Part shown: positions 39,374-56,069 of the stretch, in pieces
Numbering within the stretch: position 1 is the first letter of the stretch
Layout: each line of letters begins with the position of its first letter
Origin: Plantactinospora endophytica
GTDB lineage: Bacteria > Actinomycetota > Actinomycetes > Mycobacteriales > Micromonosporaceae
Assembly (NCBI RefSeq): GCF_016862915.1
Contig: NZ_BONW01000039.1
Coordinates: forward strand, 186,001 to 250,000
DNA length: 64,000 nt
Direction of reading: 5' to 3'
The notes under the pieces: model-generated
The model's input: the letters and a program-made list of their open reading frames with translations, nothing else
What the model was told of the DNA's origin: nothing
Database searches by the model: none
Translations under genes and position numbers: made by a program

Positions 39374-39958
39374 TCAGCCGACCGGTGCCGACAGCACGGC
39401 GCTCACGTCGAAGCAGAGGGTCGGGGCGGCGCCCCGGGCCGTCAGGTTGGCCAGCACGGTGGCGGCGGCCGGCATCGACCCCGGGTCGGCGACCAGCAGG
39501 ACGTCGAAGCGCCCCTGCTGGAGCACGTACCGGTCGAGCAGCCGCAGCCGGGGGTCGCCCTTCTTGGCGTACAGCGGCTGGAAGAGCCGGCGGTAGACCG
39601 GCAGGCCGACCCGGCGGTGCACCCGGTCCGCGAACGCCCGCTGGTAGGCCCGGTTCGCCTTCTTGGAGCCGCCGGCCAGCGGCCCCCGCCCGACCGCCTT
39701 GAACAGGAACCCGGGGCCCCGGACCAGCACCAGTTGCTCGACGGCCAGCGGTGCCAGCCGGAGTTCGAGTTTGGTCAGGTCGACGACCCGGAGCTGCTTG
39801 GGCAGCTTCTCCCGGCGCCACTTGGCCATGTCGCTGACCACCAGGGTGGCGGTGCCGCCGGCGGCGATCACCTGGGCGACGTCCGCCAGTACGGCGAGCC
39901 GGCGCGAGCCCTCCAGGGCCAGGATCAACACCTGCGGTTCAGCCATCGGTACGGGCAT
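39374..39958 (-). CDS. Protein of unknown function, stand-alone copy of a GT4-associated ~190-residue domain
   Basis: I do not recognise this 194-residue protein. It begins with a Rossmann-like strand, QVLILALEGSRRLAVLADVA, then GGTATLVVSDMAKW, a basic middle with RRVGLPVYRRLFQPLY, and ends FDVLLVADPGSMPAAATVLA and TLCFDVSAVLS. The same order of features forms the C-terminal part of the GT at 53133-55352 (VVVVAISAGNVRRSKAF, GYQVFRPLVLWRIAR, RRVVVSGVDGVTIG, TTSLAWTDD). It overlaps the stop of the GT4 gene upstream, so both are translated together. It may be an acceptor-binding or half GT-B domain partner. ATG 39946 is an alternative start. Confidence 0.75.
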   Translation of the reverse strand: MPVPMAEPQVLILALEGSRRLAVLADVAQVIAAGGTATLVVSDMAKWRREKLPKQLRVVDLTKLELRLAPLAVEQLVLVRGPGFLFKAVGRGPLAGGSKKANRAYQRAFADRVHRRVGLPVYRRLFQPLYAKKGDPRLRLLDRYVLQQGRFDVLLVADPGSMPAAATVLANLTARGAAPTLCFDVSAVLSAPVG

Positions 39959-41228
39959 CCCATCCGGTCGTGGTCGACGCTCCCGCGCCCGCTCCGCCGA
40001 ACCACGCCTCCCGGTGGCTGCGGGCGACGGCGGGATAGCTGTACTTGTCGGCGAGTTCGCGCTGGGCGCGGGGCAGGTCGAGGCCGTGCGGGAAGCGGTC
40101 CCGCAGCCGGCGGTAACCGTCCACGATCGACTCCGCGTTCTCCTCGACCGGGATCAGCTCGCCGGCCGCCTGCTCCAGCCCGGCCAGCGTCTCCTCCGGC
40201 CCGCCGCACCGGGTGACCAGCACCGGCGTACCGGCGGCGATCGCCTCGACGATGGTCATGCCGAAGGTCTCGAACCGGCTCGGGTGCACCAGCAGGTCGT
40301 GCTCGCGCATCATCCGCAGCGCCTCGTCCGGCGGCAGCGCACCGGCGAAGGTGACCGCCTCGGTGACGCCGAGTTCGGCGGCCCGCCGGGTCAGGTCCTT
40401 GCGGAGCTGTCCCTCGCCGACGAAGGTGAGCGAGAGGTCCGGCTCCTCGGCCCGGCACTTGGCGAACGCCTCCAGCAGCCAGGAGACGCCCTTTCGGGGC
40501 AGCAGGCCGCCGACGAAGAGCCAGCGGTGCAGCGCGGTGACCGGAGTGGCCCGGGGCTGGTCGAAGGCGATCGGGTTCGGGATGAAGCCGATCTTGTCGG
40601 CGTGGTGCGGAAACGCCTCGACCAGCGGCTTGCGTACGGCGTCGCCGACGGCGAAGAAGCCGGCGCAGCGGTGCAGCAGTTCGTCGTACATCGCCCGGGC
40701 CTCGGGCTGTTCCAGCACCAGGTTGAGGAAGGTGGCGTGCTCGGTCACGAAGACCCGGGCGTCGGGGCGCGCGTTGTGCAGCGCCGCCCAGCCCCCGGGA
40801 AGCCCGACGTGGGCGTGCACCACCGGCGCGTCGAGCGGCACGTTGCCGATCGACGACCGGAGCGCCTCCGTGTGGTTGCGGGAGATCTCCGCGTAGTCCG
40901 GGGTGACCGGCATCACCACCGGCAGGTGCACCAGATCGGCGCCGCCGACGGTGGGCCGCCGGTGCACCCCGTGCGGCAGCAGGGCCCGGTACGCCTCGTC
41001 GATCGCGGCGGTGGTCTCCGCCGGCAGCCGGTGCCCCCACTCGTCGGTGTGGTAGACGGTGACCCGTCGGTATTCGGGCGCGGTCGCCTCCACCATCGCC
41101 TGCACGAACGCGCCCCGGAACGGGCGCTGGCCGGTGGGATACCACGGGGTGACGACGGCGACGTCGCTGGCGATGTTCGTCTGCACCTGGTTCGGTCCTC
41201 GCTTCGCCGGGCGGTCTCGGTCAGGCAT
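39939..41228 (-). CDS. GT4-family glycosyltransferase
   Basis: The 429-residue GT-B enzyme has VAVVTPWYPTGQRPFRGAF near residue 22, VVHAHVGLPGGWAAL, WLFVGGLLPRKGVSWLLEAF near 245, LTFVGEGQLRKDL and SRFETFGMTIVEAIAAGTP near 335, which includes the E-x7-E nucleotide-sugar site. It transfers an unknown sugar with retention. ATG 41228 overlaps the epimerase stop by eight bases; GTG near 41190 is an alternative. Its first half resembles the middle of the GT at 53133-55352. Confidence 0.9.
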   Translation of the reverse strand: MPDRDRPAKRGPNQVQTNIASDVAVVTPWYPTGQRPFRGAFVQAMVEATAPEYRRVTVYHTDEWGHRLPAETTAAIDEAYRALLPHGVHRRPTVGGADLVHLPVVMPVTPDYAEISRNHTEALRSSIGNVPLDAPVVHAHVGLPGGWAALHNARPDARVFVTEHATFLNLVLEQPEARAMYDELLHRCAGFFAVGDAVRKPLVEAFPHHADKIGFIPNPIAFDQPRATPVTALHRWLFVGGLLPRKGVSWLLEAFAKCRAEEPDLSLTFVGEGQLRKDLTRRAAELGVTEAVTFAGALPPDEALRMMREHDLLVHPSRFETFGMTIVEAIAAGTPVLVTRCGGPEETLAGLEQAAGELIPVEENAESIVDGYRRLRDRFPHGLDLPRAQRELADKYSYPAVARSHREAWFGGAGAGASTTTGWDARTDG

Positions 41229-42300
41229 GCCGCTCGAGGATCTGGACGACCCGCTGCGCGGCGGTGCCGTCGCCGTACGGGGCGGCGCGTTCGGCCGTCG
41301 GGGTGGCGCGGGTCGCCGTACCGCTCCAGTCGACCACCTCGGCCGGGTTGGGCACGAGGCGGTTCCAGTCGCCGTCCAGCGTCTCGACCCACTCGGTCTC
41401 CGGGCGCAGCGTGGTGCAGACCCGGCCGAGCAGGAACGCCTCCTTCTGCAACCCGCCCGAGTCGGTGACCACACCGGTCGAGCCGAGCACCGCGGCGATC
41501 ATGGCGGCGTAGCCGACCGGCCGACCGACGTGGATGGCGCCCTGGGCGAGCTTGAGACCGTACTGCTCGGCCCGGGCCAGCAGCCGGGGGTGGGCCAGCA
41601 GGGCGACCGGGACGGGCAGCTCGGCCAACGCCGCGACCAGCCCGGCGAGCCGCTCGGGGTCGTCGGTGTTCTCCGCCCGGTGCAGCGTGGCGAGCAGGTA
41701 CGGCGACTGCGGGTCGATCCCCTCCGGCAGCGTCGGCGCCGGGTGCTCGCCGGCCAGCACGGCGTCCCGGATCCGCAGGCAGACGTCGACCATCACGTCT
41801 CCGGCGAGCACGGAACGGGCGGCCAGACCCTCGTCGGCGAGGTGCCGCATGGCCTCCTCGGTCGGGGCCAGCAGCAGGTCGGCGGCGTGGTCGGTGAGTA
41901 CCCGGTTGTGCTCCTCCGGCATCCGCCGGTTGAACGAGCGCAGCCCGGCCTCCAGGTGGGCGACCTTCAGGTGCTGCTTGACCGCCGAGACCGCACCCGC
42001 CAGCGTCGAGTTGGTGTCGCCGTAGACGAGCACCCAGTCCGGGTTCTGCTCGGCCAGCACCGGGTCGATGCCGGCCAGCACCGCACCGGTCTGCACGCCG
42101 TGGCTGCCGGAGCCGACCCCGAGGTGCACGTCCGGGTCGGGGATGCCGAGGCCGGAGAAGAAGACGTCGGAGAGGTCGGCGTCGTAGTGCTGGCCGGTGT
42201 GCACGATGACGTGCTCGTGGTCCGTTCTGGCGAAGGCGGCCGCGATCGGCGCGAGTTTCACCAACTGCGGGCGGGCTCCGACAACGCTGACAACCTTCAC
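41221..42300 (-). CDS. wecB: Non-hydrolysing UDP-N-acetylglucosamine-type 2-epimerase (WecB/WbpI-like)
   Basis: The 359-residue protein matches the bacterial 2-epimerases: VVSVVGARPQLVKLAPI at the start, VIVHTGQHYDADLSDVFF, YGDTNSTLAGAVSA, HLEAGLRSFNRRMPEEHNR near residue 130, and TDSGGLQKEAFLLGRVC near 275. It inverts C2 of UDP-GlcNAc or, like WbpI, of UDP-GlcNAc3NAcA. The segment GVGSGSHGVQTGAVL is more like the WbpI branch, and other genes of the diamino-uronate route are present, so I favour the second substrate. GTG 42300 follows GGGAG at nine bases. Confidence 0.88.
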   Translation of the reverse strand: MKVVSVVGARPQLVKLAPIAAAFARTDHEHVIVHTGQHYDADLSDVFFSGLGIPDPDVHLGVGSGSHGVQTGAVLAGIDPVLAEQNPDWVLVYGDTNSTLAGAVSAVKQHLKVAHLEAGLRSFNRRMPEEHNRVLTDHAADLLLAPTEEAMRHLADEGLAARSVLAGDVMVDVCLRIRDAVLAGEHPAPTLPEGIDPQSPYLLATLHRAENTDDPERLAGLVAALAELPVPVALLAHPRLLARAEQYGLKLAQGAIHVGRPVGYAAMIAAVLGSTGVVTDSGGLQKEAFLLGRVCTTLRPETEWVETLDGDWNRLVPNPAEVVDWSGTATRATPTAERAAPYGDGTAAQRVVQILERHA

Positions 42301-42467
42301 TGCGGATTACTCCCGGCGTCGATCGACGGTGGAATGCGGGGCATCGGGCTGTTCGGGCGCCCCGGCCGCGCGAGCTTCGCGCGACAAGGCGGGAATGGTA
42401 CAGCACCCCTGGTGCCCACACGATACGTCACTCGATCGGTGATCTCCCACTCGGCCGGTGGCGACGA

Positions 42468-43322
42468 TCACCCGGCGTCCGACCCCGGTCCGGGCCGCCG
42501 GGCCGACCGGCGACCGCGCCACACCCGGGCCAGTTCCCGGGGTACGCCGGCCAGCGCGCGCGCCGGAACCCGCGCTCCCCGGGCGACCGCGCTGCCGAGC
42601 TGGTACCCGGCCGAGGACTCGACCTCGGCGAGCCGCCGCCGGGCGTCCCGGAGCAGTTCGTCCCGTTCGGCGAGCAGCCGCTGTTGCGACTCGACCCGCT
42701 CGGTCAACTCGGCCAGCCGCCGCCGCACCGGCCGGCTCACCAGGTCCGCGAGCTGGTACTCGTTGACCACCCGCAACACGGTCGCCAACTCCCCGCCGTC
42801 CCCGGAGTCTCCGTCGTTCCCGCCGTCCGGTTCCGCCGGCCCGGGCCCGGCCGGTTCGACGGGAGTGCGGGCGTCGATCAGGTAGCCGCGCAGCGGGGCC
42901 AGCCGGGTCACCCGCTCGACGACCAGCGCGCCGGACACCCCACGGATGGCGGCCCGGTCCAGCGGGGTGACCTCCCTGATCTGGCAGCGCCCGGCCACCA
43001 GCGGCCCGACCAACCGGTGGTACGGCAACTCCTCGACCGACCAGCCGATCAGCAGCGCCGCCCGGGTGCCCGGCGAGAACCGGCGCAGCACCGGGGTCAG
43101 CGCGTCCGGGTCGACGTGCGCGGGCGAGGCGGCGCCGAGCAGGCAGAACAGCATCGTCTCCGGGCCGAACCCCGCCCCGGCGGCCTGCTCCAGCGCCACC
43201 CGCCGGTAGCCGACCTCGGCCGGCAGCCGCAGGTGCCGTTCCAGCGTGACGTCGGGGTGGCTGACGTCGACGACCTCGCGTACCCCGTCGAGATAGCGGG
43301 GGAGGAGTTCGGAGATCCGCAT
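42468..43322 (-). CDS. Unknown protein with C-terminal coiled coil, linked to a methyltransferase
   Basis: I do not recognise this 284-residue protein. Residues 1-150 are a mixed alpha/beta domain with RISELLPRYLDGV, ETMLFCLLGAASP, PGTRAALLIGWSVEELPYHR and GALVVERVTRLAPLRGYLI. An acidic Gly-rich linker (about 155-185) leads to a coiled coil around 190-240 (ELTERVESQQRLLAERDELL), then YQLGSAVARGARVPARAL and a basic tail. It is encoded 16 bp after a SAM methyltransferase and probably works with it. The YQLG-x-arginine-rich ending also occurs on other polysaccharide-locus proteins and may bind the membrane surface. Confidence 0.75.
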   Translation of the reverse strand: MRISELLPRYLDGVREVVDVSHPDVTLERHLRLPAEVGYRRVALEQAAGAGFGPETMLFCLLGAASPAHVDPDALTPVLRRFSPGTRAALLIGWSVEELPYHRLVGPLVAGRCQIREVTPLDRAAIRGVSGALVVERVTRLAPLRGYLIDARTPVEPAGPGPAEPDGGNDGDSGDGGELATVLRVVNEYQLADLVSRPVRRRLAELTERVESQQRLLAERDELLRDARRRLAEVESSAGYQLGSAVARGARVPARALAGVPRELARVWRGRRSARRPGPGSDAG

Positions 43323-43338
43323 CGGCGGCGTTCCTTCC

Positions 43339-43980
43339 TCAGCCGGTCCGGGTGAAGACGTAGAACCCGTTGGGATTGCCCCGGAAGGCGTACGGCCGCC
43401 AGCCGTCGAACCGGAGCCCACACTCCCGGGCCAGTGGTACGTACCGGTTCCTGCCCCGGACGACCTGGTAGTTCCCGTACGTCCGGTCGCCGTCCTCGCC
43501 CCAGTCGGCGAGCGCCAGCCGGCCCCGCAGTCGGACCAGCGAGGCGAGGTTGCGTACCGACCGCTCCCACTCGTCGTCGTCGAGGATGTGGAACAGCACG
43601 TCGACCGAGAGCACCACGTCGTAGAGCCATGGGCTGCGCCAGCCGGAGAGGCTGGACTGGAAGTAGCGGGCTCCGCCACCCCGCTCCCGGCAGTACGCCA
43701 GTGCGCTCTCGCTGGCGTCGATCCCGTCGACCTGGTGGCCGAACCGGGCCAGTTCCCGGCTGAACCAGCCCTTGCCGCAGCCGGCGTCGAGCAGGAAGAG
43801 CGGCGCCACCGGGTCGGACTGGTGGCCGACGATGTCCAGCAGGAGGCTGAGCCGCAGGATGTAGAACATCCGGTTGGTGGGCTCGTCGAACGACATGTCC
43901 CCGCCGGAGCGGAGGTCGCCCTCCCGCTGGTGCCGGGCGTTCCAGTAGGCGGCGTTCTCCTCGGCGGACAACAGTCCCAC
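43339..43980 (-). CDS. Class I SAM-dependent methyltransferase
   Basis: The 213-residue protein has motif I FLLDAGCGKGWFSRELA near residue 63, GIDASESALAYC with the acidic residue that binds the ribose, DVVLSVDVLFHIL near 120 and GRLALADWGED. The start AYWNARHQREGDLRSGG resembles sugar- and polysaccharide-acting methyltransferases. It probably caps or modifies the glycan. GTG 43980 follows GAGCGAGG. Confidence 0.87.
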   Translation of the reverse strand: MGLLSAEENAAYWNARHQREGDLRSGGDMSFDEPTNRMFYILRLSLLLDIVGHQSDPVAPLFLLDAGCGKGWFSRELARFGHQVDGIDASESALAYCRERGGGARYFQSSLSGWRSPWLYDVVLSVDVLFHILDDDEWERSVRNLASLVRLRGRLALADWGEDGDRTYGNYQVVRGRNRYVPLARECGLRFDGWRPYAFRGNPNGFYVFTRTG

Positions 43981-44097
43981 CCTCGCTCACCATCCTCGCC
44001 TCGCTGCCGGCGTACCTTCCGGTGGCTCCGGCGGCGACGCTAACACGCGACCGTCCGGGCAGAACGGATCTACCCGGCAGGGGTGGGGCGAAACCGG

Positions 44098-45279
44098 TCA
44101 AACGATGGTGCGCAGGTACGGCACCCGGGCGGCGCCGAGCGACGCCGCGAAGGACACGAGCACGATCACCAGGTAGGCGCCGACCATGAGGACCAGGGAG
44201 CGGGCCTCGGCCACCCCCGGCACGGTCTGCCGGAGCACCTCCAGCACCAGCAGGTGCATCAGGAACACCCCGAACGACGCGTCGGAGAGCCGGACGAGGA
44301 TCCGGCCGACCCGGGGCGGCGGGGTCACCCGGGCGCCGACCCCGACGGCGAGCAGGAAGACGCAGACGGCCGCGACGGCCACCGTGGTGCCGAGGTAGCC
44401 GACCGGGAGCAGCGCCTGGAGCCAGGGGTGCTCCGGGCGTACGCCCCACTGCCAGACCGCCTCGGCCATCAGCAGTACCGCCAGCACTCCCGCCACCACC
44501 AGGCCGCGCCGGCCGAGCACGACCCGGTGCAGCGCCCAGCCGGCCACGAAGTAGCCGACGTACGGCCACCACATGGTCAGCGCGCCGAGGTGGATCGGGC
44601 GGGGTGCGCCGATCATGGCAGCCGCACCCGAGGCCACGAAGGTGACCATGGTGAAGGCCAGCGCCACCCCGGCCAGGATCATCGCCCGGCGCCGGCCGCC
44701 GTCCTTGAGGAACGCCGCCAGCACCGGCGCGACCAGGTACAGCCCGGCGATCAGCCAGAGGAAGTAGAGCGCCGTGAAGACCCGCGCGTCCATCAGGTTG
44801 CGGGCCAGCAGGTTCAGGCTCAGCTCCTCGCCCCGCCACAGCACCCGTACGCCCACCAGGTAGACGAGGTGCCAGGCGACCAGGGCGGGGATGATCCGGA
44901 CGAACCGCTTCCGGTAGAAGGCGGCCGGCCCGGCGGCGTGTGCCCGGGGTGCCAGGGTGAGCGCACCGCTGATCATCACGAAGACCGGGACCACCCAGGT
45001 CACCCCGAGGTCGATCGCCGCCGCCGTCCACCAGGTCAGCGTGTGTCGCAGGTCGTCGTGTCCGAGTACGAGCCCGACCACGTGGATCGCGACGACTCCG
45101 CAGACGGCCACCACCCGGAGTGCGTCCAGCCCCCACTGCCGGGCCGGTCGGCCGGTGCCCGCCGCGCCGACCGTGCCGCTGGCCGTGGCGTCGACGGAGG
45201 TCTCCGGGGCGGGTGTGCCGGTCGCCGCCGACCCGGGCGTGTCCTGGGTCGGCAGTTCCGGTTGGGCCGGCATCCTCAT
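44098..45279 (-). CDS. Membrane acyltransferase (acyltransferase-3 family)
   Basis: The 393-residue protein has about ten membrane segments after a 48-residue soluble start. LDALRVVAVCGVVAIHVVG near residue 51 is the family's R-x10-H motif, PVFVMISGALTLAPR and FYRKRFVRIIPALVAWHLVY follow. Such proteins move acetyl or other acyl groups from CoA through the membrane onto sugars of wall polymers (OatA, WecH). ATG 45279 is supported by a TAGTAT box seven bases upstream. Confidence 0.9.
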   Translation of the reverse strand: MRMPAQPELPTQDTPGSAATGTPAPETSVDATASGTVGAAGTGRPARQWGLDALRVVAVCGVVAIHVVGLVLGHDDLRHTLTWWTAAAIDLGVTWVVPVFVMISGALTLAPRAHAAGPAAFYRKRFVRIIPALVAWHLVYLVGVRVLWRGEELSLNLLARNLMDARVFTALYFLWLIAGLYLVAPVLAAFLKDGGRRRAMILAGVALAFTMVTFVASGAAAMIGAPRPIHLGALTMWWPYVGYFVAGWALHRVVLGRRGLVVAGVLAVLLMAEAVWQWGVRPEHPWLQALLPVGYLGTTVAVAAVCVFLLAVGVGARVTPPPRVGRILVRLSDASFGVFLMHLLVLEVLRQTVPGVAEARSLVLMVGAYLVIVLVSFAASLGAARVPYLRTIV

Positions 45280-45286
45280 CGCGCGA

Positions 45287-45292
45287 ATACTA
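45287..45292 (-). promoter_or_regulatory. -10 box TAGTAT, leaderless acyltransferase gene
   Basis: Minus-strand TAGTAT lies seven bases before ATG 45279, and no ribosome-binding sequence is present. Confidence 0.55.
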
Positions 45293-45344
45293 GTGGTGCC
45301 GGCGGCACCGGTGAATTCGGCCGAGCCGATGCGAAACCGGGCGG

Positions 45345-45362
45345 TTGCCGTACACTCGTCGG
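45345..45362 (+). promoter_or_regulatory. Conserved promoter-like element 1
   Basis: TTGCCGTACACTCGTCGG matches the element at 47164 in 17 of 18 bases. TACACT inside fits a -10 box about 42 bases before ATG 45399. No clear -35 box lies at 17-18 bases upstream. Confidence 0.45.
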
Positions 45363-45398
45363 GTCCTCGGGGGCCCTTGGAAGGCGGAGAAGCCAAAA

Positions 45399-47048
45399 AT
45401 GGTGGTTGACGGCGCGGCCGGGATGTCCGACTCCCGTCGGCGGATTGTCATGTTGGTCGACAACGCGGTCACGGGTGACTCCCGGGTGCAGAAGGTCGCC
45501 CGTTCGGCTGCCGAGGCCGGCTGGGACGTCATCCTGCTGGGCTGCTCGCCGACCGGGCAGACGCAGACCTGGCAGCTCGGCCAGGCCGAGGTGCGGCTGG
45601 TGCCGTTCCCGCAGCCGCTGGCCAAGAAGCGGCACGAGTTCCGGCGGGTCTTCCGGCGCGGTCCGCTGGCGTACCCGCCGAGCGGGATCGCCGAGCACCG
45701 CGCGCAGTGGGTCCGGGCCTGGCGGGCCGACCTGGGGGTCCGGCGGGCGCAGTTCGCCCTGGCCAAGCGCGGCGGCGGCCCGGTGCCGGCCGGTGGCGCC
45801 CGGCGGCTGAAGCTGGAGGAGCAGGCTGCGGCGCTGCTCAAGAAGTGGGTCTCGTTCCGCTACTGGCAGCTCACCAGCGCCCAGCGGTCCCGCCGCCGCC
45901 TGGAGGGGCCGATCGACCGCTTCTACACCTGGTTCTGGGGCGCGGTGCAGGGCGACCGGAGCTGGCGGAAGCTGGAGCCCGGGCTCTGGGACTACGAGCT
46001 GGCCTTCGGTCCGGTGATCGACCAGCTGGCCCCCGACCTGATCCACGCGCACGACTACCGGATGATCGGAGTGGGTGCCCGGGCGACCGTCCGGGCCCGG
46101 GCCGCCGGCAAGACCGTGCAACTGGTCTGGGACGCCCACGAGTTCCTGCCGGGGCTCAGCTCGGCGACCAAGCGGGGCCGCTGGCTGAAGGCGCACGTCG
46201 CGCACGAGCGGGAGTACGCGCCCTTCGCCGACGTGGTGCTGACGGTTTCCGAGGGCCTGGCGGAGATGTTGAAGGAGTCGCACGGCCTGGCCGAGCTGCC
46301 GACGGTGGTGATGAACGCGCCGGACGTGACGGTACGGGACCGGTCGACCGAGTCCGGCGCCGACGAGCCGGTCACCGACATCCGCGCCCGGTGCGGGCTG
46401 GGTCCGGGAACGCCGCTGCTGGCGTACTCGGGCGGGATCGCACCCGTGCGTGGCGTCGACGTGATGATCGACGCGCTGCCGACGCTCACCGACGTGCACG
46501 TGGCACTGGTCTCGGTGCCGCCGGGGAAGCGCTCGACCGCCTCGATCGACACCCTGCTCGCCCGGGCCGCCAAGCTCGGCGTGGCCGACCGGGTGCACCT
46601 GCTGCCGTACGTGCCGCACTGGCAGGTCTCCGAGTTCCTCTCCACCGCCGACGCCGCGGTGAGCCCGCTGGTGCACCTGACCAACCACGAGATCGCACTC
46701 AGCAACAAGTTCTTCGAGTACTCGCAGGCCCGGTTGCCGATGGTGGTCAGCGACGTGCGGACGATGGCCGCCACCGTCCGCTCCACCGGCCAGGGCGAGG
46801 TGTTCAAGGCCCAGGACGTGCAGGACTACATCCGGGCGGTCCGGGCGGTACTCGCCGACCCGGCGCGCTACCGGGCCGCGTACGACCGGCCGGGGCTGCT
46901 GGAGAGCTGGACCTGGGAGGCCCAGGCGAGGGTGCTCGTCGACGTCTACCGTCGGCTGCTGCCCGGTCGTCCAGCCACCGCGCAACCGGATGTTCCGGGT
47001 CACCTCGTCACTACCGGTACGCAACGCACGCTCGAAACCACGGGCTGA
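45399..47048 (+). CDS. GT4-family glycosyltransferase, first of a tandem pair
   Basis: The 549-residue protein begins RRIVMLVDNAVTGDSRVQKV, then GWDVILLGCSP. A 120-residue basic insert (about 75-190) with KKWVSFRYWQLTSAQRSRR separates the first Rossmann strands from LIHAHDYRMIGVGARA and VWDAHEFLPGL. The C-terminal domain has PLLAYSGGIAPVRGVDVMI, VHLLPYVPHWQVSEFLSTAD and NKFFEYSQARLPMVVSDVRT. It follows the retaining GT4 pattern. GGAG nine bases before ATG 45399 supports the start. The next gene is a paralogue about 180 bp downstream. Confidence 0.9.
   Translation: MVVDGAAGMSDSRRRIVMLVDNAVTGDSRVQKVARSAAEAGWDVILLGCSPTGQTQTWQLGQAEVRLVPFPQPLAKKRHEFRRVFRRGPLAYPPSGIAEHRAQWVRAWRADLGVRRAQFALAKRGGGPVPAGGARRLKLEEQAAALLKKWVSFRYWQLTSAQRSRRRLEGPIDRFYTWFWGAVQGDRSWRKLEPGLWDYELAFGPVIDQLAPDLIHAHDYRMIGVGARATVRARAAGKTVQLVWDAHEFLPGLSSATKRGRWLKAHVAHEREYAPFADVVLTVSEGLAEMLKESHGLAELPTVVMNAPDVTVRDRSTESGADEPVTDIRARCGLGPGTPLLAYSGGIAPVRGVDVMIDALPTLTDVHVALVSVPPGKRSTASIDTLLARAAKLGVADRVHLLPYVPHWQVSEFLSTADAAVSPLVHLTNHEIALSNKFFEYSQARLPMVVSDVRTMAATVRSTGQGEVFKAQDVQDYIRAVRAVLADPARYRAAYDRPGLLESWTWEAQARVLVDVYRRLLPGRPATAQPDVPGHLVTTGTQRTLETTG
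46848..46921 (+). repeat. 74-bp segment identical to 48649-48722
   Basis: These 74 bases near the 3' end of the first tandem GT gene are identical to 48649-48722 in the second, coding ADPARYRAAYDRPGLLESW and the next residues, while flanking sequence has diverged. Confidence 0.9.
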
Positions 47049-47163
47049 CCGGCACGACCGACACCGGCACGACCTGCGGGATCTCCCGTCGAGCAGGCAG
47101 GCGTGCCGGTGCCGACGATCATCGATCTGCGGCGACGGTCACGATCGGCAACCGCACCCGGGA

Positions 47164-47181
47164 TTGCCGTACACTCGCCGG
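47164..47181 (+). promoter_or_regulatory. Conserved promoter-like element 2
   Basis: TTGCCGTACACTCGCCGG is the second copy of the element at 45345, about 57 bases before ATG 47227. It suggests the two tandem GT genes were copied with their promoter. Confidence 0.45.
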
Positions 47182-47226
47182 AGTCTCCTGGAAAGCCCCG
47201 ACCGGAAGGGCAGAGAAGACACAGTC

Positions 47227-48852
47227 ATGGAGTTCGACGGCGCCGCCGAGGCGCGGAACACGCGTGGGCGCGTGGTGATGCTGGTCGACAACGGGGTGAA
47301 CGGTGACTCCCGGGTGCAGAAGGCCGCCCGGTCGGCCGCTGCCGCCGGCTGGGAGGTGATCCTGCTCGGCCGCTCCCCGCACGGGCAGCCGCAGAGCTGG
47401 CGGCTCGGCGACGCCGAGGTCCGGCTGCTGCCGATGCCGGATCCGCTGGCCCGGCGCCGCCACGAGTACCGGCGGGCCTGGCTGCGTTGGCCGCTCGCCT
47501 ATCCGCCCAACGGCATCGCCCCGTGGCGGGCCCAGGCGGCCAAGGCCCGCCAGGCGGACCTGCGGTTCCGGCAGGCGCAGCTCACCCTGGCCGCCCGGGC
47601 CGGCCGCCCCGACCCGCTCGGCCAGCGGCTGCTCCGGCTGCGGACGCTGACGGCACAGCTACGCCGCCGCTGGGTCTCCTTCCGGTACTGGCAGCTCACC
47701 CGGGCGCAGAACGGCCGGAAGTACCGCAACCCGTGGGACCGCAGTTTCACCTGGTTCTGGCAGCGGACCCGGGGCGACGGGGCCTGGCGCCGACTCGAAC
47801 CGGGGCTGTGGGACTACGAGCTGGCGTACGGGCCGGTGGTGGACCAACTCGCGCCGGACCTGATCCACGCCAACGACTTCCGGATGCTCGGGGTGGCCGC
47901 CCGCGCCAAGATCCGGGCACAGACCGCCGGCCGGACGATCAGGCTGGTCTGGGACGCCCACGAGTTCCTGCCCGGCCTCAAGCCGTGGCGGGACAACGCC
48001 CGCTGGCTGCCGGCGAACGTCGGCCACGAGCGCGAGTACGCCCCGTACGCCGATGCCGTGGTCACCGTCTCCGAGGCGCTCGGCGACCTGCTGCGCGGCC
48101 AGCACGACCTGACCGAACGTCCGGCCGTGGTGCTGAACGCGCCGGCCGTCGGCGACCGGCCGACCGGGGTGGACGAGCCGCAGCCGGACATCCGCCGGCT
48201 CTGCGGGATCGGTCCCGAGGTGCCGTTGCTGGTCTACAGCGGTGCGGCGGGTCACCAGCGCGGCGTCGACACCATGGTGGCGGCGTTGCCGGAGCTGCCC
48301 GGAGCGCACGTCGCGATGGTGGTCAACAAGCCGACCGGTCCGCAGACGCTGGAGGTGCTGCGCCGGGCCGCCCGGCTCGGGGTGGCCGACCGGGTGCACG
48401 TGCTGCCGTACGTGGCGCACTGGCAGGTGGTGCCGTTCCTGGCCGGCGCCGACGTCGGGGTGATCCCGATCCACCACTGGCCCAACCACGAGATCGCGCT
48501 GATCACCAAGTTCTTCGAGTACTCGCACGCCCGGCTGCCGATCGTGGTCAGCGACGTCAAGACGATGGCCGACACGGTCCGCTCGACCGGGCAGGGCGAG
48601 GTCTTCCGGGCCGAGGACGTGGCCGACTACGTCCGCGCCGTCCGGGCCGTACTCGCCGACCCGGCGCGCTACCGGGCCGCGTACGACCGGCCGGGGCTGC
48701 TGGAGAGCTGGACCTGGGAGGCACAGGCCGGAATCCTCGACGAGGTCTACACCCGGCTGCTGCCCGGTTCGGCCCGTCCCGGGGCGGGCCTGCCGTCGAG
48801 CGCGGATGCGCTGGCCGGCGGCTCGCGGCCGACCGTCGGGCTGCCGGCGTGA
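47227..48852 (+). CDS. GT4-family glycosyltransferase, second of a tandem pair
   Basis: The 541-residue protein is paralogous to the preceding gene over its whole length: VVMLVDNGVNGDSRVQKAA, WVSFRYWQLTRAQNGRK, LIHANDFRMLGVAARA, VWDAHEFLPGLKP, LLVYSGAAGHQRGVDTMV and TKFFEYSHARLPIVVSDVKT. The donor-site neighbourhood differs (IPIHHWPNHEIAL against SPLVHLTNHEIAL), so the sugar may differ. The last 30 residues are a Gly/Ala/Ser-rich tail. ATG 47227 is the first codon of the homologous region. Confidence 0.9.
   Translation: MEFDGAAEARNTRGRVVMLVDNGVNGDSRVQKAARSAAAAGWEVILLGRSPHGQPQSWRLGDAEVRLLPMPDPLARRRHEYRRAWLRWPLAYPPNGIAPWRAQAAKARQADLRFRQAQLTLAARAGRPDPLGQRLLRLRTLTAQLRRRWVSFRYWQLTRAQNGRKYRNPWDRSFTWFWQRTRGDGAWRRLEPGLWDYELAYGPVVDQLAPDLIHANDFRMLGVAARAKIRAQTAGRTIRLVWDAHEFLPGLKPWRDNARWLPANVGHEREYAPYADAVVTVSEALGDLLRGQHDLTERPAVVLNAPAVGDRPTGVDEPQPDIRRLCGIGPEVPLLVYSGAAGHQRGVDTMVAALPELPGAHVAMVVNKPTGPQTLEVLRRAARLGVADRVHVLPYVAHWQVVPFLAGADVGVIPIHHWPNHEIALITKFFEYSHARLPIVVSDVKTMADTVRSTGQGEVFRAEDVADYVRAVRAVLADPARYRAAYDRPGLLESWTWEAQAGILDEVYTRLLPGSARPGAGLPSSADALAGGSRPTVGLPA
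48649..48722 (+). repeat. 74-bp segment identical to 46848-46921
   Basis: Second copy of the identical block; see the first copy. The likely cause is gene conversion or strong constraint after tandem duplication. Confidence 0.9.
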
Positions 48853-48868
48853 GGACGACGGTGGCCTG

Positions 48869-50440
48869 ATGGGAACGCCCGACGTCAGCGTGGTGGTGGC
48901 GGTCTACAACACCATGCCCTACCTCACCAAGTGCCTGAACTCGTTGGTCCGGCAGAGCATCGGCCGGGACCGGATGGAGGTCGTCGCGGTCGACGACGGC
49001 TCCACCGACGGCAGCGGCCGGGAACTCGACCGCTTCGCCCGGCTCTATCCGGACACCGTCAAGGTGGTCCACCAGGAGAACTCCGGCGGTCCGGCCGTCC
49101 CCAGCAACCGGGGCCTGGAACTGGCCACCGGCCGGTACGTCTTCTTCATCGGCGCCGACGACTACCTCGGCGAGGAGGCGCTGGAACGGCTGGTCACCGC
49201 CGCCGACGAGTACGGCTCGGACGTGGTGCTGGGCAAGACCGTCGGGGTGAACAGCCGCAACATCCACCAGGCGGTCTTCGCCCGCAACGAGACCGATCTC
49301 GACCTCTTCGACTCGGCCCTGCCCTGGGCGCTGTCGAACACCAAGCTGTTCCGCCGGGAGCTGGTCGAACGGCACGGGCTGCGCTATCCGGAGGACATGC
49401 CGGTCGGCAGCGACCAGCCGTTCACCCTGGAGGCGTGCTACCGGGCGAAGCGGATTTCCGTGCTTGCCGACTACCGCTTCTACCACGCCGTACGCCGGCT
49501 CAACGCGCACAACATCACCTACCGCTCCCGGCACGAGGAGCGGCTGCGCTGTGCCGAGCAGTTGGTGGAGTTCGTCGCCGGCCTGATCACGCCGGGCAAG
49601 CAGCGCGACGCCGTGCTGCTCCGGCACTTCACCTGGGAAATCGCCCGGCTGCTGGAGGACGACTTCCTCCGGCTCGACCGGGCCGTCCAGGAACGGGTGG
49701 TGGCCGGCATCCGGGCGCTGGCCGACCAATACCTGACCGACGACATCCGGGAGCGGTTGGAGATCGAGGCGCGGTTGCGGATCTCCACCGCGCAGCGGGG
49801 TACCGTCGACGACCTGCTCGCGGTGATCCGGCAGGACGCCGAGCAGGGCGTACCGCCGACGATCGTGGACGGCGACCGCTGGTACGCCGGCTATCCCGGC
49901 TTCCGGGACGACCGGCTGGAGATGCCGGACCGTTGGTTCGACGTCTCGGACAGCGCGGCCGACTGGCTGGCCCGGATGGACGCGGTCGACCTGGAGTGGG
50001 AGACCGCCGCCGACGGCAGCCGGGGCCTGACGATCACCGCGCACACCCCGCGCCGCAACCTGGCCAGCCTCACCTCCGGCCCGATCGGGCTGGCCGCCGG
50101 TGACGTGGTCGGCGCTACCCTGGAGACCAGCCGGGACGCCGACGGCACCACGGTGAAGGCCCGGTTCCGGGTGGAGCAGTTGCTGGCCGGGGTCGGGGTC
50201 GGCGGCACGCTCTTCACGGTCCGGTCCCAGTTGACCGCGTTCGGCACCACCGGCTCCAGCCCGCTGCGGATGCCGACCCGGCCGACCGCGCCCCGCATGA
50301 TCTTCCGCCGGGGAGTCCGGTTCTTCGTCATCACGCCCACCACGAGTCACCGTGGGCAACTTGTCATCGCAATAGCACCTGTCACGCCCCGCCGGGTCAT
50401 GGCCCAGCTACGGCGCAGGTTGCCCAAGGGAGGAAAGTAG
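48869..50440 (+). CDS. TarS-like family-2 glycosyltransferase
   Basis: The 523-residue protein has a GT-A domain: VSVVVAVYNTMPYLTKCLNS at the start, VVAVDDGSTDGSGREL, QENSGGPAVPSNRGLELATG and FFIGADDYLGEEAL with the DxD-type site near residue 93, then TVGVNSRNIHQAVF, ALSNTKLFRRELV and MPVGSDQPFTLEACYRAKRI. The order and wording of these parts resemble TarS/TarP, which put GlcNAc on poly(ribitol phosphate). A C-terminal 200-residue beta-rich part could be the oligomerisation or substrate domain of that family. It overlaps no gene but starts 17 bp after the tandem GT pair. Confidence 0.83.
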   Translation: MGTPDVSVVVAVYNTMPYLTKCLNSLVRQSIGRDRMEVVAVDDGSTDGSGRELDRFARLYPDTVKVVHQENSGGPAVPSNRGLELATGRYVFFIGADDYLGEEALERLVTAADEYGSDVVLGKTVGVNSRNIHQAVFARNETDLDLFDSALPWALSNTKLFRRELVERHGLRYPEDMPVGSDQPFTLEACYRAKRISVLADYRFYHAVRRLNAHNITYRSRHEERLRCAEQLVEFVAGLITPGKQRDAVLLRHFTWEIARLLEDDFLRLDRAVQERVVAGIRALADQYLTDDIRERLEIEARLRISTAQRGTVDDLLAVIRQDAEQGVPPTIVDGDRWYAGYPGFRDDRLEMPDRWFDVSDSAADWLARMDAVDLEWETAADGSRGLTITAHTPRRNLASLTSGPIGLAAGDVVGATLETSRDADGTTVKARFRVEQLLAGVGVGGTLFTVRSQLTAFGTTGSSPLRMPTRPTAPRMIFRRGVRFFVITPTTSHRGQLVIAIAPVTPRRVMAQLRRRLPKGGK

Positions 50441-50445
50441 AAGGC

Positions 50446-51729
50446 ATGAAAATCTGCGTTGTCGCTCTGGGGAAGATCGGCCTGCCGCTGGCCGTGCAGT
50501 TCGCCGACAAGGGGCACACGGTGATCGGCGCCGACGTGTCCGAGCGGGTCGTGAAGCTCGTCAACGACGGCGCGGTGCCGTTCCCCGGCGAGGCCGACCT
50601 GGACGTCAAGCTCAAGGAGGCGGTGGCGGCCGGCCGGCTCTCCGCGACCACCGACACCGCCTCGGCGGTCGCCGAGTCCGAGGCCGTGGTCGTGGTGGTG
50701 CCGCTCTTCGTCGACGCGGAGGGGACGCCGGACTTCGGCTGGATGGACGACGCCACCCGGGCGATCGCGGCCGGGCTCAAGCCGGGCACCCTGGTCAGCT
50801 ACGAGACCACCCTGCCGGTGGGCACCACCCGCAACCGCTGGGCGCCGATGCTGGAACAGGGCTCCGGGCTCAAGGTCGGCACCGACTTCACCCTGGTCTT
50901 CAGCCCCGAGCGGGTGCTGACCGGCCGGGTCTTCGCCGACCTGCGCCGCTACCCGAAGCTGGTCGGCGGGGTGGACGAGGCGTCGGCGAAGCGCGGCGTC
51001 GAGTTCTACGAGGCGGTGCTCGACTTCGACGAGCGCCCCGACCTGTCCCGCCCGAACGGCGTCTGGGACCTGGGCTCGGCCGAGGCGTCCGAGCTGGCCA
51101 AGCTCGCCGAGACGACGTACCGGGACGTGAACATCGGGCTGGCGAACCAGTTCGCCCGGTTCGCCGACACCGTCGGCGTCGACGTGATCAAGGTCATCGA
51201 GGCCTGCAACACCCAGCCGTACAGCCACATCCACTCGCCGGGCATCGCCGTCGGCGGGCACTGCATCCCGGTCTACCCCCGGATGTACCTCTGGAACGAC
51301 CCGTCCGCCACCGTCGTCCGGGCGGCCCGGGAGGCCAACGCCGGGATGCCGGACTACGCCGTCGAGCTGCTCGCCGCCGCCTGGGGCGACCTGACCGACG
51401 TCGAGGTGCTGGTGCTCGGTGCGGCGTACCGGGGCGGGGTCAAGGAGACCGCGTTCTCCGGTGTCTTCCCGACCGTCGAGGCGCTGCGCGCCCGGGGCGC
51501 GAAGCCGTACGTCTCCGACCCGATGTACACCGCCGAGGAGCTGACCGCGCTCGGACTCCCGGCGTACCAGGGCGAGCGGGTCGAGGCCGTGGTGGTGCAG
51601 GCCGACCACGCCGAGTACCGCACCCTGGCCGAGACCGACCTGCCCGGCGTACGGGTGGTCGTCGACGGTCGCCGGGTGACCGACGCCACCCGCTGGCCGA
51701 ACGTACGCCGGATCGTCATCGGCGGCTGA
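50446..51729 (+). CDS. Nucleotide-sugar dehydrogenase (UDP-GlcNAc/ManNAc 6-dehydrogenase, WbpA/WecC type)
   Basis: The 427-residue enzyme starts KICVVALGKIGLPLAVQFAD, the NAD site, has SYETTLPVGTTRNRW, FSPERVLTGRVF, SAEASELAKLAETTYRDVNI near residue 210 with the catalytic Lys, and AVGGHCIPVYPRMYLW near 265 with the catalytic Cys. It oxidises C6 of a UDP-N-acetylhexosamine to the uronate in two steps. It supplies the first step of the diamino-uronate route found in this locus. It begins five bases after the TarS-like gene, with AAGG upstream of ATG 50446. Confidence 0.9.
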   Translation: MKICVVALGKIGLPLAVQFADKGHTVIGADVSERVVKLVNDGAVPFPGEADLDVKLKEAVAAGRLSATTDTASAVAESEAVVVVVPLFVDAEGTPDFGWMDDATRAIAAGLKPGTLVSYETTLPVGTTRNRWAPMLEQGSGLKVGTDFTLVFSPERVLTGRVFADLRRYPKLVGGVDEASAKRGVEFYEAVLDFDERPDLSRPNGVWDLGSAEASELAKLAETTYRDVNIGLANQFARFADTVGVDVIKVIEACNTQPYSHIHSPGIAVGGHCIPVYPRMYLWNDPSATVVRAAREANAGMPDYAVELLAAAWGDLTDVEVLVLGAAYRGGVKETAFSGVFPTVEALRARGAKPYVSDPMYTAEELTALGLPAYQGERVEAVVVQADHAEYRTLAETDLPGVRVVVDGRRVTDATRWPNVRRIVIGG

Positions 51730-51786
51730 CCGGTACCCCCACCCGGCGCCACCGCCCCCGCCGCTATCCGACAGGAGTGACTAGCC

Positions 51787-53130
51787 ATCACCACGCCGTC
51801 TGCCCGGGGACGTTCTCGGCCTCCCCGGGTCCTGTATCTGTCGTTCTACTTTCCGCCCAGCCGGGCCAGCGGGGTGTTCCGGGCCCGGGCCACCGCCAAC
51901 CGGCTGGCGGAGGACGGTTGGGACGTGACCGTCTTCACCGCGCCCCGGGAGTTCTTCGCGGAGCACCTGGGCGGGGCCAGCGACGAGACGCTGGAGGCCA
52001 CCGTCGACCCCCGGGTACGGGTGGAGCGGGTCAAGCTGGGTGTGCACCACTGGGAGACGGACGTCCGCAGGTTCGGCTTCTTCCGGGGCATGTTCCCGAA
52101 CGTCAGTGACCGGATCTACCAGGCCGGGCAGCAGAAGATCTTTCCCGAGCACTACCTCGGGTGGCTGCCCGGTCTGCTCCGCACCGCGCTCAAGCGGCAC
52201 CTGCGGCGCCGCTACGACCTGGTGCTCGCCACCGGTAACCCGTTCGTCTCGTTCGTCGCGGCATGGGCGCTGGGCAGGATGCTCCGGATCCCGTACGTCG
52301 TCGACTACCGGGACGCCTGGACGTTCAACCAGTTCACCGAGGAGCTGATCTTCCCCGAGGGCAGCACCATGATGCGCTGGGAGGGGCGGGTGCTGCGCGG
52401 CGCCGCCGAGAGCGTCTTCGTCAACGACGGCATGCGGCAGTGGCACGCCGAGCGCTATCCGTTCGCCGCCGAGCGGATGAAGGTGGTGCCGAACGGCTGG
52501 GAGCCGGAGATCCTCGGCCGGGCGACCTTCCAGGCGCCGGAGCCGGACCGGCCGCTGCGGTTCGGCTATCTCGGCACGGTCACCAACCACATGCCGCTGG
52601 ACGTGCTCTTCGCCGGCTGGCGGCTGGCGAAGGCGCATCCGCTGCTCGCCACCGCCTCCCTGGAGGTGCACGGCCACCTGGGCTTCTTCCCGCACAACAT
52701 CGCGCCGCTGAAGGCCCGGATCGAGGAGGAGTCCGACCTGAACGTGCGCTACAGCGGCCCGTTCGGCAAGACCGAGGCCGCCGGGGTGTACGGCCGGACC
52801 GACGTGCTGGTCTTCTGTGTACCGGGTGCCCGGTACGTGACGTCCGGCAAGGTCTTCGAGTACATGGCGACCGGCAAGCCGGTGGTGTCGGTGCACATTC
52901 CGGAGATCGCCGCCACCGAGGTGCTCTCCGGCTATCCACTGTGGTTCGCCGGTAAGAAGCTGGACGCCGAGAGTGTTGCCCAGTCGCTGATCGCCGCCGC
53001 CAAGGCCGCCCGGGACCTGGACTCCGCCACGCACGAGGCTGCGGTCCGGCACGCCGAGACGTACACCCGGGCGGCGACGCTCGGCCCGTGGGAGGCCCGG
53101 CTGCGCCGGCTCGCGGAAGGGGCCCGCTGA
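51787..53130 (+). CDS. GT4-family glycosyltransferase, probable ATC start
   Basis: The protein has about 447 residues when read from ATC 51787: after RPPRVLYLSFYFPPSRASGV it shows ATANRLAEDGWDVTVFTAP, LVLATGNPFVSFVAAWALGR, VVDYRDAWTFNQFTEEL, MKVVPNGWEPEIL, LRFGYLGTVTNHMPLDVLF and VTSGKVFEYMATGKPVVSV. An in-frame TGA at 51778 closes the frame, and the only codons with AGGAG (51773-51777) at a usable distance is ATC 51787. GTG 51874 would cut off the first beta strand of the GT-B fold. It is followed by the next GT after two bases. Confidence 0.87.
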   Translation: MTTPSARGRSRPPRVLYLSFYFPPSRASGVFRARATANRLAEDGWDVTVFTAPREFFAEHLGGASDETLEATVDPRVRVERVKLGVHHWETDVRRFGFFRGMFPNVSDRIYQAGQQKIFPEHYLGWLPGLLRTALKRHLRRRYDLVLATGNPFVSFVAAWALGRMLRIPYVVDYRDAWTFNQFTEELIFPEGSTMMRWEGRVLRGAAESVFVNDGMRQWHAERYPFAAERMKVVPNGWEPEILGRATFQAPEPDRPLRFGYLGTVTNHMPLDVLFAGWRLAKAHPLLATASLEVHGHLGFFPHNIAPLKARIEEESDLNVRYSGPFGKTEAAGVYGRTDVLVFCVPGARYVTSGKVFEYMATGKPVVSVHIPEIAATEVLSGYPLWFAGKKLDAESVAQSLIAAAKAARDLDSATHEAAVRHAETYTRAATLGPWEARLRRLAEGAR

Positions 53131-53132
53131 CC

Positions 53133-55352
53133 ATGGCCTACTCGAACGTGGTGTACGTCGCGCTGGGCACGGAACGGATCCGGGCCGCGCGCTGGCACGT
53201 GAACCGGCTCGCCGAGACCGGCGCCCGGGTCACCCTGGTCGTCCCGAACCATCCACAGTGGAAGAACCCGAACACCCCGGCCGAGGTCACCGTGCGCAGG
53301 CTCGGGGCCCGGGAGCCCCGGAAGGCGTTGCGGGCGGCCCGCCGGCTGCTGCTCGGCCGGGGCGGTCCGCTGCGCGACGCCGACCTACTGGTGGTCGGCG
53401 ACCCGGAGGCGCTGCCGGTGGCCTGGACCGCGCTGCGCAAACGGCCGGAGCTGGCCGTCCGGCTCGAACCGGCCGAGCAGCCGGAGCGGCGTACCGGACT
53501 GACCGACCTGGCGGTGGTCACCCCCTGGTACCCCTCACCCGAGGACGCCGACTCCGAGTTCGTCCCGTCGGCGCTGGCGGCGGTGGACCCGTCGATCGAG
53601 CGGATCTCGGTGCTGCACGCCGAGGAGTGGCGCTACCCACCACAGTCGGCCGTCGCACCGCACATCGACGTACTGGTCGAGCGGTTCGGTCCGAAGTGGA
53701 CCCTTCCGGTGGTGACCGACCACCCTCGGGGCGAACTCACCCGGGTCGCGGTGCCGAATCCCGCCCAGTCCCGGGCGTTCGCCGAGCACGCCGAGGCGAA
53801 CCTGCGGATGGTGCAGGCCGCGCTGCCCAGTGGCCGAATCGAGGCACCGCTGGTGCACGGGTACGGCGGGCTTGCCGGTGGACTGCCGGCCGTTCGGTTG
53901 GCCCGTCCGGATGCCCGGGTGGTGGTCTCCGAGCAGTCCGACCGGCTCGCCGAGCTGCTCGGCCAGCCCGCCGCGAAGAAGCTCTACGCCGAGGTGCTGG
54001 GCCGGGCCACCGCTCTGCTCTGCGTCAACCCGCAACTGCGTGACCTGGTCGCCGGCCAGTTCCCGCAGTACGCGGCGAAGCTGCACGTGCTGCCGTACCC
54101 GGTCGACCCGGACCGGTTCCCGCTCCGCCCGACCCCGCCCGGCGACCTGCTCCGCTGGCTCTACGTCGGCGAACTCCCCGACGAACGGGCGGTCCGGGCC
54201 CTGCTCTCCGGTTTCGCCCGCGCGGTGGGCGGCGAGCCGGAGGCGAGGCTGACCGTGGTCGGCACCCGGGCGATGGCCGGTACGGTCCGGGCCCGCGCCC
54301 GTGACCTGGACCTCGCGGACAAGGTCATGTTGCGCACCAGCGTGCCGGCGGAGGAATATCCGGCCCTGCTGCACGGGGCCGACCTGCTGGTGCACCTGGG
54401 CCGGCACGACACGTTCAGCCCGGTCGTGGCGGAGGCGGTCGTCACCGGGCTGCCGGTCTTCGCCACCCGCAGCCCGGGTGCCGAGGACGTGCTCGGCGCC
54501 GTCGAGCCGCTCGCCGGTCTGCTGGTCGAGCTGACCAACGACCCGAAGGTGGTCGTCGAGGGCTTCCGCGAGCTGCGCGAACGGCTCGGCACGCTGAACC
54601 CGGCGGCGGCCCGTGCCGCAGTGCTCGCCCGATTCGGCCGGGAGGGTGTGGCGGCGGCGCTCCGCGAGCACTACGGCCTCGACCCGGTCGCCGTACCGGA
54701 GCCGGTCGCCGCGACGGCTCCGGAGTCCGTCGACGCCGCAGCGGGGTCGACGGGCAGCACCCGCGCCGCCCAGGTCCCCGGCCCGGTGCCGAAGGACGCC
54801 GACCGGGTGGTCGTGGTGGCGATCAGCGCCGGCAACGTACGCCGGAGCAAGGCGTTCACCCACTCGGTGGTGGCCCGGGGCCTGCACGTCGACCTGATCA
54901 CCGCCGACCCGGGCGCGGCGAACCGGGTGGGGCTGGGACACAGCGTCCGGATCCACCCGTTGGCCGCACACGAGGAGCGTCGCCCGATGCTCCGGGCGGA
55001 GCAGTTGCTGCTGCGCAAGGTGCCGGGCAAGTTCCTCGCGGTGGCCCGGGGCCGGACCCGGCGGATGTCGGCGCTCCGGCCGGAGTTGACGGTCGCCGTC
55101 GCCCAGTGGGCGCACAACCGGGCCGCGGGAGCCTTCCACCACAAGATCTTCAACCGTGGCTACCAGGTGTTCCGGCCGCTGGTGCTGTGGCGGATCGCCC
55201 GCCGGCAGACGGTGCCGAAGCTCGACCTGGGGCGTACCCGTCGGGTGGTGGTCTCCGGCGTCGACGGCGTGACCATCGGCTGGAAGCTGGCCCGCCGGCA
55301 CCCGAAGCTGCCGGTGACCACGTCGCTGGCCTGGACCGACGACAAGAGTTGA
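53133..55352 (+). CDS. Three-part glycosyltransferase: N-terminal Rossmann piece, GT4 core, C-terminal unknown domain
   Basis: The 739-residue protein has three regions. Residues 1-120 start VVYVALGTERIRAARWHVNR and resemble a lone first half of a GT-B fold. Residues 140-540 are a GT4 enzyme similar to the one at 39939-41228: LAVVTPWYPSPEDADSEFV, APLVHGYGGLAGGLPAV, WLYVGELPDERAVRALLSGF and HDTFSPVVAEAVVTGLPVF. A Pro/Ala linker (about 545-570) leads to residues 572-739, which match the small protein at 39374-39958. The donor sugar is unknown. ATG 53133 follows GGAAGGGG; the gene begins two bases after the preceding stop. Confidence 0.85.
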   Translation: MAYSNVVYVALGTERIRAARWHVNRLAETGARVTLVVPNHPQWKNPNTPAEVTVRRLGAREPRKALRAARRLLLGRGGPLRDADLLVVGDPEALPVAWTALRKRPELAVRLEPAEQPERRTGLTDLAVVTPWYPSPEDADSEFVPSALAAVDPSIERISVLHAEEWRYPPQSAVAPHIDVLVERFGPKWTLPVVTDHPRGELTRVAVPNPAQSRAFAEHAEANLRMVQAALPSGRIEAPLVHGYGGLAGGLPAVRLARPDARVVVSEQSDRLAELLGQPAAKKLYAEVLGRATALLCVNPQLRDLVAGQFPQYAAKLHVLPYPVDPDRFPLRPTPPGDLLRWLYVGELPDERAVRALLSGFARAVGGEPEARLTVVGTRAMAGTVRARARDLDLADKVMLRTSVPAEEYPALLHGADLLVHLGRHDTFSPVVAEAVVTGLPVFATRSPGAEDVLGAVEPLAGLLVELTNDPKVVVEGFRELRERLGTLNPAAARAAVLARFGREGVAAALREHYGLDPVAVPEPVAATAPESVDAAAGSTGSTRAAQVPGPVPKDADRVVVVAISAGNVRRSKAFTHSVVARGLHVDLITADPGAANRVGLGHSVRIHPLAAHEERRPMLRAEQLLLRKVPGKFLAVARGRTRRMSALRPELTVAVAQWAHNRAAGAFHHKIFNRGYQVFRPLVLWRIARRQTVPKLDLGRTRRVVVSGVDGVTIGWKLARRHPKLPVTTSLAWTDDKS

Positions 55353-55409: not shown

Positions 55410-55511
55410 GGTGGCGCGGAGCCGCCGTCCGAGTGTGTTCGGAGGCGGCACCGCGCCGCCGTCCGAATGTGGTCGGAGGCGGCGCGGAGCCGTCGTCCGG
55501 GTTCGGTCAGA
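55410..55511. repeat. Three 34-bp tandem repeats reaching into a stop codon
   Basis: Units 55410-55443, 55444-55477 and 55478-55511 share GGCGGCGCGGAGCCGCCGTC with mismatches. The third unit contains the TGA and last codon of the minus-strand WbpD-like gene. Confidence 0.82.
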
Positions 55512-56061: not shown

Positions 56062-56069
56062 GGCTTCGG

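Follow-up and report, generated by a model that had tools for sequence, protein, structure and literature searches.

The DNA analyzed here is a 64,000-nucleotide stretch of the Plantactinospora endophytica genome (contig NZ_BONW01000039.1, positions 186,001 to 250,000), hereafter the window, which encodes a small domain that occurs once as a separate protein and twice within a fused one, next to glycosyltransferases of family 4 (GT4). We read this domain, from comparison of sequence profiles, as an orphan copy of the acceptor-side (N-terminal) half of a GT-B fold glycosyltransferase of the type denoted GT4b below. The open reading frames of the two similar proteins that a first-pass annotation of the sequence had singled out are indeed present, on the minus strand at 39374-39958 and on the plus strand at 53133-55352. 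The genes and domains in question are the following.

39374..39958, minus: standalone domain A, 194 amino acids, with a second possible start at 39946
39939..41186, minus: GT4a, the intact GT4 partner of A (Pfam Glycos_transf_1 and Glyco_transf_4)
51874..53130, plus: GT4b, the second GT4 (Pfam), the N-terminal half of which is the closest identified relative of the domain
53133..55352, plus: gene of the fused protein, 739 codons, in the order A', GT4 core, linker, B
53133..53486, plus: A' domain (fused residues 1-118), without the long insert
53487..54722, plus: GT4a-like core of the fused protein (residues 119-530), probably catalytically dead
54723..54788, plus: linker (residues 531-552); predicted local distance difference test score (pLDDT) below 50 for residues 519-551
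54789..55349, plus: B domain (residues 553-739), 99.3% to A in hhalign

The stop of the GT4a gene overlaps the start region of the A gene. Both GT4a and GT4b are complete GT-B enzymes, each matching Pfam families of the N-half and of the C-half. GT4a is homologous to the core of the fused protein (E = 1e-54), in agreement with the earlier remark that the product of the GT4 gene overlapping the separate form resembles the middle of the fused protein.

A BLASTP comparison of A with the fused protein produced matches to residues 551-640 (31.6 bits, E = 2e-5) and 1-77 (32.7 bits, E = 8e-6), so the domain is present twice in the fused protein. Searching 226 proteins from seven loci with a profile built on nine standalone proteins retrieved the fused protein at E = 4.2e-11; the next window protein scored 0.19. 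When profiles of A and B (27 rows each) were compared with hhalign, they aligned over 160 columns (99.3%, E = 4.1e-20), and A' (the N-terminal 125 residues) matched A at 97.2% and B at 97.3%. The likeness between A and the C-terminus of the fused protein, initially noticed by eye, thus represents homology. Its extent, given as residues ~572-739, captured the C-terminal copy, which starts near residue 553, and missed the N-terminal copy A' (1-118). The fused B domain is also homologous to standalone B genes in genomes G002, G005, and G006. Scans with single proteins detected no relative in viral contigs or genome contigs, and the plasmid search gave no match.

The A protein (39374-39958) has no match among the Pfam, NCBIfam, or PHROGs families, and the profile of the A family matches none of the PDB sequences up to E = 10; across 32 A members, four other Pfam families matched one member each, the best being EACC1 (E = 0.0027). 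A probable origin of the domain emerged from deep profiles, one built from 105 sequences of A and B, of which 64 remained once redundancy was filtered, the other from 56 of the GT4b type. The joint A and B profile aligned with the GT4b N-half at 96.6% and E = 4.9e-10, covering 150 columns in order; its E values were 0.051 against the C-half of GT4b, 0.13 and 0.35 against the two halves of GT4a, and 4.7e-4 (32.5%) against the family of the N-terminal extension of the protein at 45399-47048. The reversed-profile control gave E = 0.6, and the best of 30 column shuffles reached 0.025. Among 30 profiles of window proteins, from which A and the fused gene were excluded, full-length GT4b scored E = 9e-7, the next best 0.0027. 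The N-half of GT4a itself was rejected as the source of the domain (E = 0.13).

Topology was read from the predicted secondary structure and confidence scores of AlphaFold2 models. The model of A (mean pLDDT 82.6, predicted template modeling score (pTM) 0.70) is Rossmann-like, with the order b1-a1-b2-b3-helical insert-b4-a-b5, the insert being its least certain part (block pLDDT 57-79). In the model of the fused protein (pLDDT 85.7, pTM 0.76), B shows this order too, its long helices spanning 618-696; A' follows b1-a1-b2-b3-a-a-b4-a-b5, the long insert missing; and the core (119-530) displays the strands of both GT-B halves. Foldseek connects the fused model to GT4 enzymes (MshA 3c48, E = 1.2e-14; BshA 6n1x, 3.7e-13). 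A and B share their predicted secondary-structure order, in line with the segment order noted in the first-pass annotation, and this strand order fits the GT-B N-half.

Several observations weigh against this derivation. The deep profile of A alone matches the GT4b N-half at 78.2%, along no more than 54 columns, and that of B alone at 93.4%, along 148. With shallow profiles the match is weak, at 9-25%; it is still the best outside the domain family among the window profiles, and, because it was too weak for a claim of homology, the comparison was repeated with the deeper ones. None of the 32 A members matches the Pfam families of the GT4 N-domain (Glyco_transf_4, Glyco_trans_4_4). A Foldseek search of the PDB with the A model gave no match at E ≤ 0.001; the best one was to a hydrogenase domain (0.016), and GT-B enzymes appeared at 0.03-0.3, interspersed with unrelated folds. 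Compared with the GT4b-type N-half (the Glyco_trans_4_4 / Glyco_transf_4 region of Pfam), the domain is alike in the whole-domain profile match and the fitting strand order; A and B differ in that they lack the donor-binding half and any GT4 Pfam match, carry a long cationic insert (the charge was measured in A and B only), and are either encoded by a gene of their own, as a partner, or attached to GT4s that are complete already.

Three other large GT4 proteins of the window (45345-48852, 36200-39187) have a common N-terminal region of ~150 residues; the one at 36200-39187 is a single protein with two GT4-type stretches by Pfam. These extensions match one another at 100% in hhalign, with overlapping member sets, and match the A/B domain weakly (8.8-46%); they were rejected as copies of the A/B domain and look like a family of their own.

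Both the split and the fused forms recur beside GT4 genes. The standalone domain lies directly after a GT4 gene in all 63 cases with a visible upstream gene. Of the 37 A genes, one is located at a locus edge and the other 36 lie immediately behind GT4a on its strand; conversely, A is directly behind 36 of the 37 GT4a genes, the exception being a 281-residue gene in locus L172. The 27 B genes (one of them weak and labeled by hand) directly follow GT4b in 24 cases; the other three, which are B-like and come from genomes of another family, have a different GT4 directly upstream. Fused genes, detected in several genera, directly follow GT4b in 13 of 18 cases; seen from the other side, the 40 close GT4b genes have B directly behind them in 24 cases and a fused gene in 13. 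The full order GT4a-A-GT4b-B is found in Actinomadura mexicana. An earlier count on 27 of these loci yielded 28/28 for A, 18/18 for B, and 9/10 for the fused gene. The split/fused pair and the co-occurrence with GT4 genes anticipated at the first pass are borne out by these counts (A after GT4a in 36 cases, B after GT4b in 24, another GT4 in three); the single GT4 partner is not, because two different GT4s, GT4a and GT4b, are involved.

The linkage has its exceptions. Most loci were picked for holding the domain, so the adjacency counts come from a biased sample. Five of the 18 fused genes (G165, G169, G217, G221, and G951) are not located behind GT4b, and three of the 40 close GT4b genes (G165, G169, and G951) are directly followed by neither B nor a fused gene; in these three, the fused gene lies elsewhere in the same locus. 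In G033, the simple gene caller overlooked the neighbors of the fused gene. A search seeded with GT4b additionally revealed a distant GT4b class in about 48 places, and in all 13 places fetched, a protein of 702-727 residues is encoded directly downstream (for example, L153 6345-8480 and L154 5320-7503), the N-terminus of which matches A' at 92.4%. All five of these proteins that were tested match a glycosyltransferase C-half by Pfam, two of them above the curated cut-off. The glycosyltransferase core of the 702-727-residue proteins is weak by Pfam, and their consensus keeps an E-x7-E-like motif.

A 100/100 branch separates the fused GT4a cores (23 rows) from the split ones (28 rows). The conserved GT4 positions are His, Arg, Lys, and E-x7-E, with names and roles as in PimA-type enzymes. 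All five (H, R, K, E, E) are intact in 17 of the 23 fused rows, so the idea of uniformly dead fused cores was rejected; in the other six, between two and five positions are lost, and these six form one clade (99/99), so the losses may reflect a single event. The fused core of the window has Y, E, R, D, E in these places, the changed residues being Y244, E347, R352, and D426, of which the third is a Lys-to-Arg replacement. With four of the five positions changed, the domain and core of 53133-55352 probably do not make up one working enzyme, contrary to what had been proposed. The broader form of that proposal, that the domain and a GT4 core act as one enzyme, fares better in one respect, the recurrence of split and fused forms, and worse in another, the completeness of the GT4 partners without the domain. 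The dN/dS ratio (nonsynonymous to synonymous substitution rates), calculated for a single genome pair, the window and G001, is 0.234 for the fused core, 0.210 for B, 0.446 for A', and 0.93 for the linker (22 codons); ten other cluster genes range from 0.09 to 0.43. These values show purifying selection on the fused protein, which has thus been kept although its core is probably inactive; judging from the sequence, it is probably a pseudo-enzyme.

The working GT4a of the window is more likely the split one (39939-41186). The H, K, E, and E positions are conserved in 28 of the 28 split GT4a sequences. Two findings complicate this assignment. The Arg, the fifth position, is missing in all 28 split GT4a sequences, so loss of this Arg alone is no sign of inactivity. 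Furthermore, a split GT4a-A pair accompanies all six decayed fused genes and also five of the 12 intact ones in the fetched loci (G165, G169, G217, G221, and G951), where absence of the pair was judged from the fetched stretch and from searches that scored few candidates per genome; decay is thus not forced by the pair, and a tie between the two was rejected. In place of the Arg of the GR motif, which the intact fused proteins keep, the window GT4a and its 27 split relatives carry S, G, A, T, or N.

The helical insert is strongly cationic: its median net charge is +14 for A (32 rows) and +12.5 for B (22 rows), with net charges of 0 (A) and +1 (B) in the rest of the domain; a charge of at least +12 was observed in 11 of 700 80-residue stretches of other window proteins. 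We infer a physical complex, a ligand of the insert, and a chemical role for the parts as follows. A, A', and B would be orphan GT4b-type N-halves that, for want of the nucleotide-sugar-binding half, should not transfer sugar themselves; A would instead serve GT4a, and B would serve GT4b, as accessory, non-catalytic subunits. In one GT4a clade, A' is fused ahead of the core, often with B behind it, and the position of this fusion, often directly behind GT4b, suggests that the four parts work as one assembly. Next to the GT4 active sites, the cationic insert of A and B most likely holds the acidic lipid-linked acceptor or the chain as it grows. In the window, the fused core would have decayed into a probable pseudo-enzyme with a scaffolding role, the split GT4a-A pair performing the chemistry. 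Taken as a whole, this is the account we find reasonably probable. Its extension, in which the A and B copies, the two GT4s and, in some lineages, a pseudo-glycosyltransferase form a polymerase complex for an acidic wall polysaccharide of actinobacteria, with the basic inserts gripping the chain and setting the order or length of addition, appears somewhat unlikely.

Strict gene adjacency, the fusion of A', GT4a, and B, and the retention of the window fused protein despite the seeming loss of catalysis could also be expected if the domains were pure assembly scaffolds that join GT4a and GT4b, the insert being a protein-protein interface that makes no contact with the substrate. The high positive charge conserved in the insert would be uncommon at a plain interface whose partner surface is not itself acidic, and we regard such a purely structural role as unlikely. 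Alternatively, the insert could be a membrane anchor bringing soluble GT4s to the membrane: it contains cationic amphipathic stretches, with hydrophobic moments up to 0.53 in A (39374-39958) and 0.51 in B of the fused protein, and the acceptors of such pathways are usually lipid-linked. The best stretch of A is polar on average, however (mean hydrophobicity -0.29), and that of B is neutral (0.04), making anchoring quite unlikely. That A or B takes the place of the N-half in the active site of its partner, in the manner of Alg13/Alg14, and alters acceptor specificity would agree with the relationship of the domain to the GT-B N-half; nevertheless, GT4a and GT4b each have an N-half of their own, and in the fused protein a complete core is flanked by A' and B, so that such a swap is highly improbable.

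Pairs of this general kind are known. GtfA and GtfB of the serine-rich repeat adhesins consist of an active GT-B enzyme and a glycosyltransferase-like partner, which is the likeness to the accessory role favored above; the families differ, and the locus described here is one of a surface polysaccharide, not an adhesin. No GtfB model is among the NCBIfam matches of the fused protein (11) or of A (0), and the GtfA model TIGR02918 scores 29 bits on GT4a, with a cut-off of 575. In Alg13/Alg14, the bacterial counterparts of which are PssD/PssE, two chains jointly make one GT-B enzyme. The ALG13/14 heterodimer (PMC9527342) resembles the present case in placing a GT-B-derived chain beside another glycosyltransferase chain, whereas GT4a and GT4b already have both halves. 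EryCIII (PMC3391682) is a glycosyltransferase with a dedicated partner, the activator EryCII, which is a P450 homologue, unlike the partner proposed here, derived from half of a glycosyltransferase. By this inference, a GT-B half-domain would act as a partner of complete GT4 enzymes, which offers a likely origin of a family for which the catalogs gave no convincing match and suggests that half of a GT-B enzyme can persist as a partner of complete ones. If the complex is real, it would be a test case for the building of acidic wall polymers in Micromonosporaceae and for the roles of pseudo-glycosyltransferases.

Among 300 sampled genomes of the window's family, the A profile was found in 48, the fused protein in 51 (E ≤ 1e-20), and GT4b in 85 (E ≤ 1e-60). 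Phylum-wide, A was detected in four of 396 genomes, all the matches except the window's own being weak and short; class-wide, B was detected in 10 of 296 genomes, with strong matches only in the window genome, G951, G864, G855, and G810. The literature searches returned no publication naming the domain or the cassette in its title or the start of its abstract.

The surroundings of these genes suggest the kind of sugar that the cluster may handle. The relevant neighbors, identified by Pfam, are listed below.

31642..33463, minus: ATP-binding cassette (ABC) exporter, ATPase and membrane subunits
34306..35418, plus: DegT-type aminotransferase (WbpE-like)
35415..36461, plus: GFO/IDH/MocA oxidoreductase (WbpB-like)
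41221..42300, minus: UDP-sugar 2-epimerase (WbpI-like), TIGR00236 at 256 bits (cut-off 210)
50446..51729, plus: nucleotide-sugar dehydrogenase (WbpA-like), TIGR03026 at 292 bits (cut-off 190)
55507..56133, minus: hexapeptide acyltransferase (WbpD-like)

The Wbp classes, which we take to be a dehydrogenase, an oxidoreductase, an aminotransferase, an acetyltransferase, and a 2-epimerase, are all represented in the window by Pfam, as a UDP-ManNAc3NAcA-type set; curated cut-offs are reached only by the epimerase and the dehydrogenase, with models that both describe broader families. The Wbp route to diacetamido-dideoxy-mannuronic acid comprises five enzymes (PMC10622841). Of the eight marker genes tested, seven or eight are present in the window and in the six relatives fetched first. 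At least one of the five Wbp-type markers is found in 50 of 53 loci, the exceptions being L065, L159, and L164, of which L065 and L164 are the G033 region, poorly read by the gene caller. Many short loci contain just one or two markers, so the link to a Wbp-type sugar, strong close to the window, becomes looser at a greater distance from it. These gene clusters probably build an acidic cell-surface sugar chain. The best NCBIfam model for the exporter ATPase is TagH, below its cut-off. Two further cluster proteins (56246-57940 and 42468-43679) have no Pfam match, and their trimmed forms have no NCBIfam match at E = 1e-10. The protein encoded at 48806-50440 belongs to glycosyltransferase family 2 (GT2), contains a TarS linker domain, and is present in all six of the first-fetched relatives.

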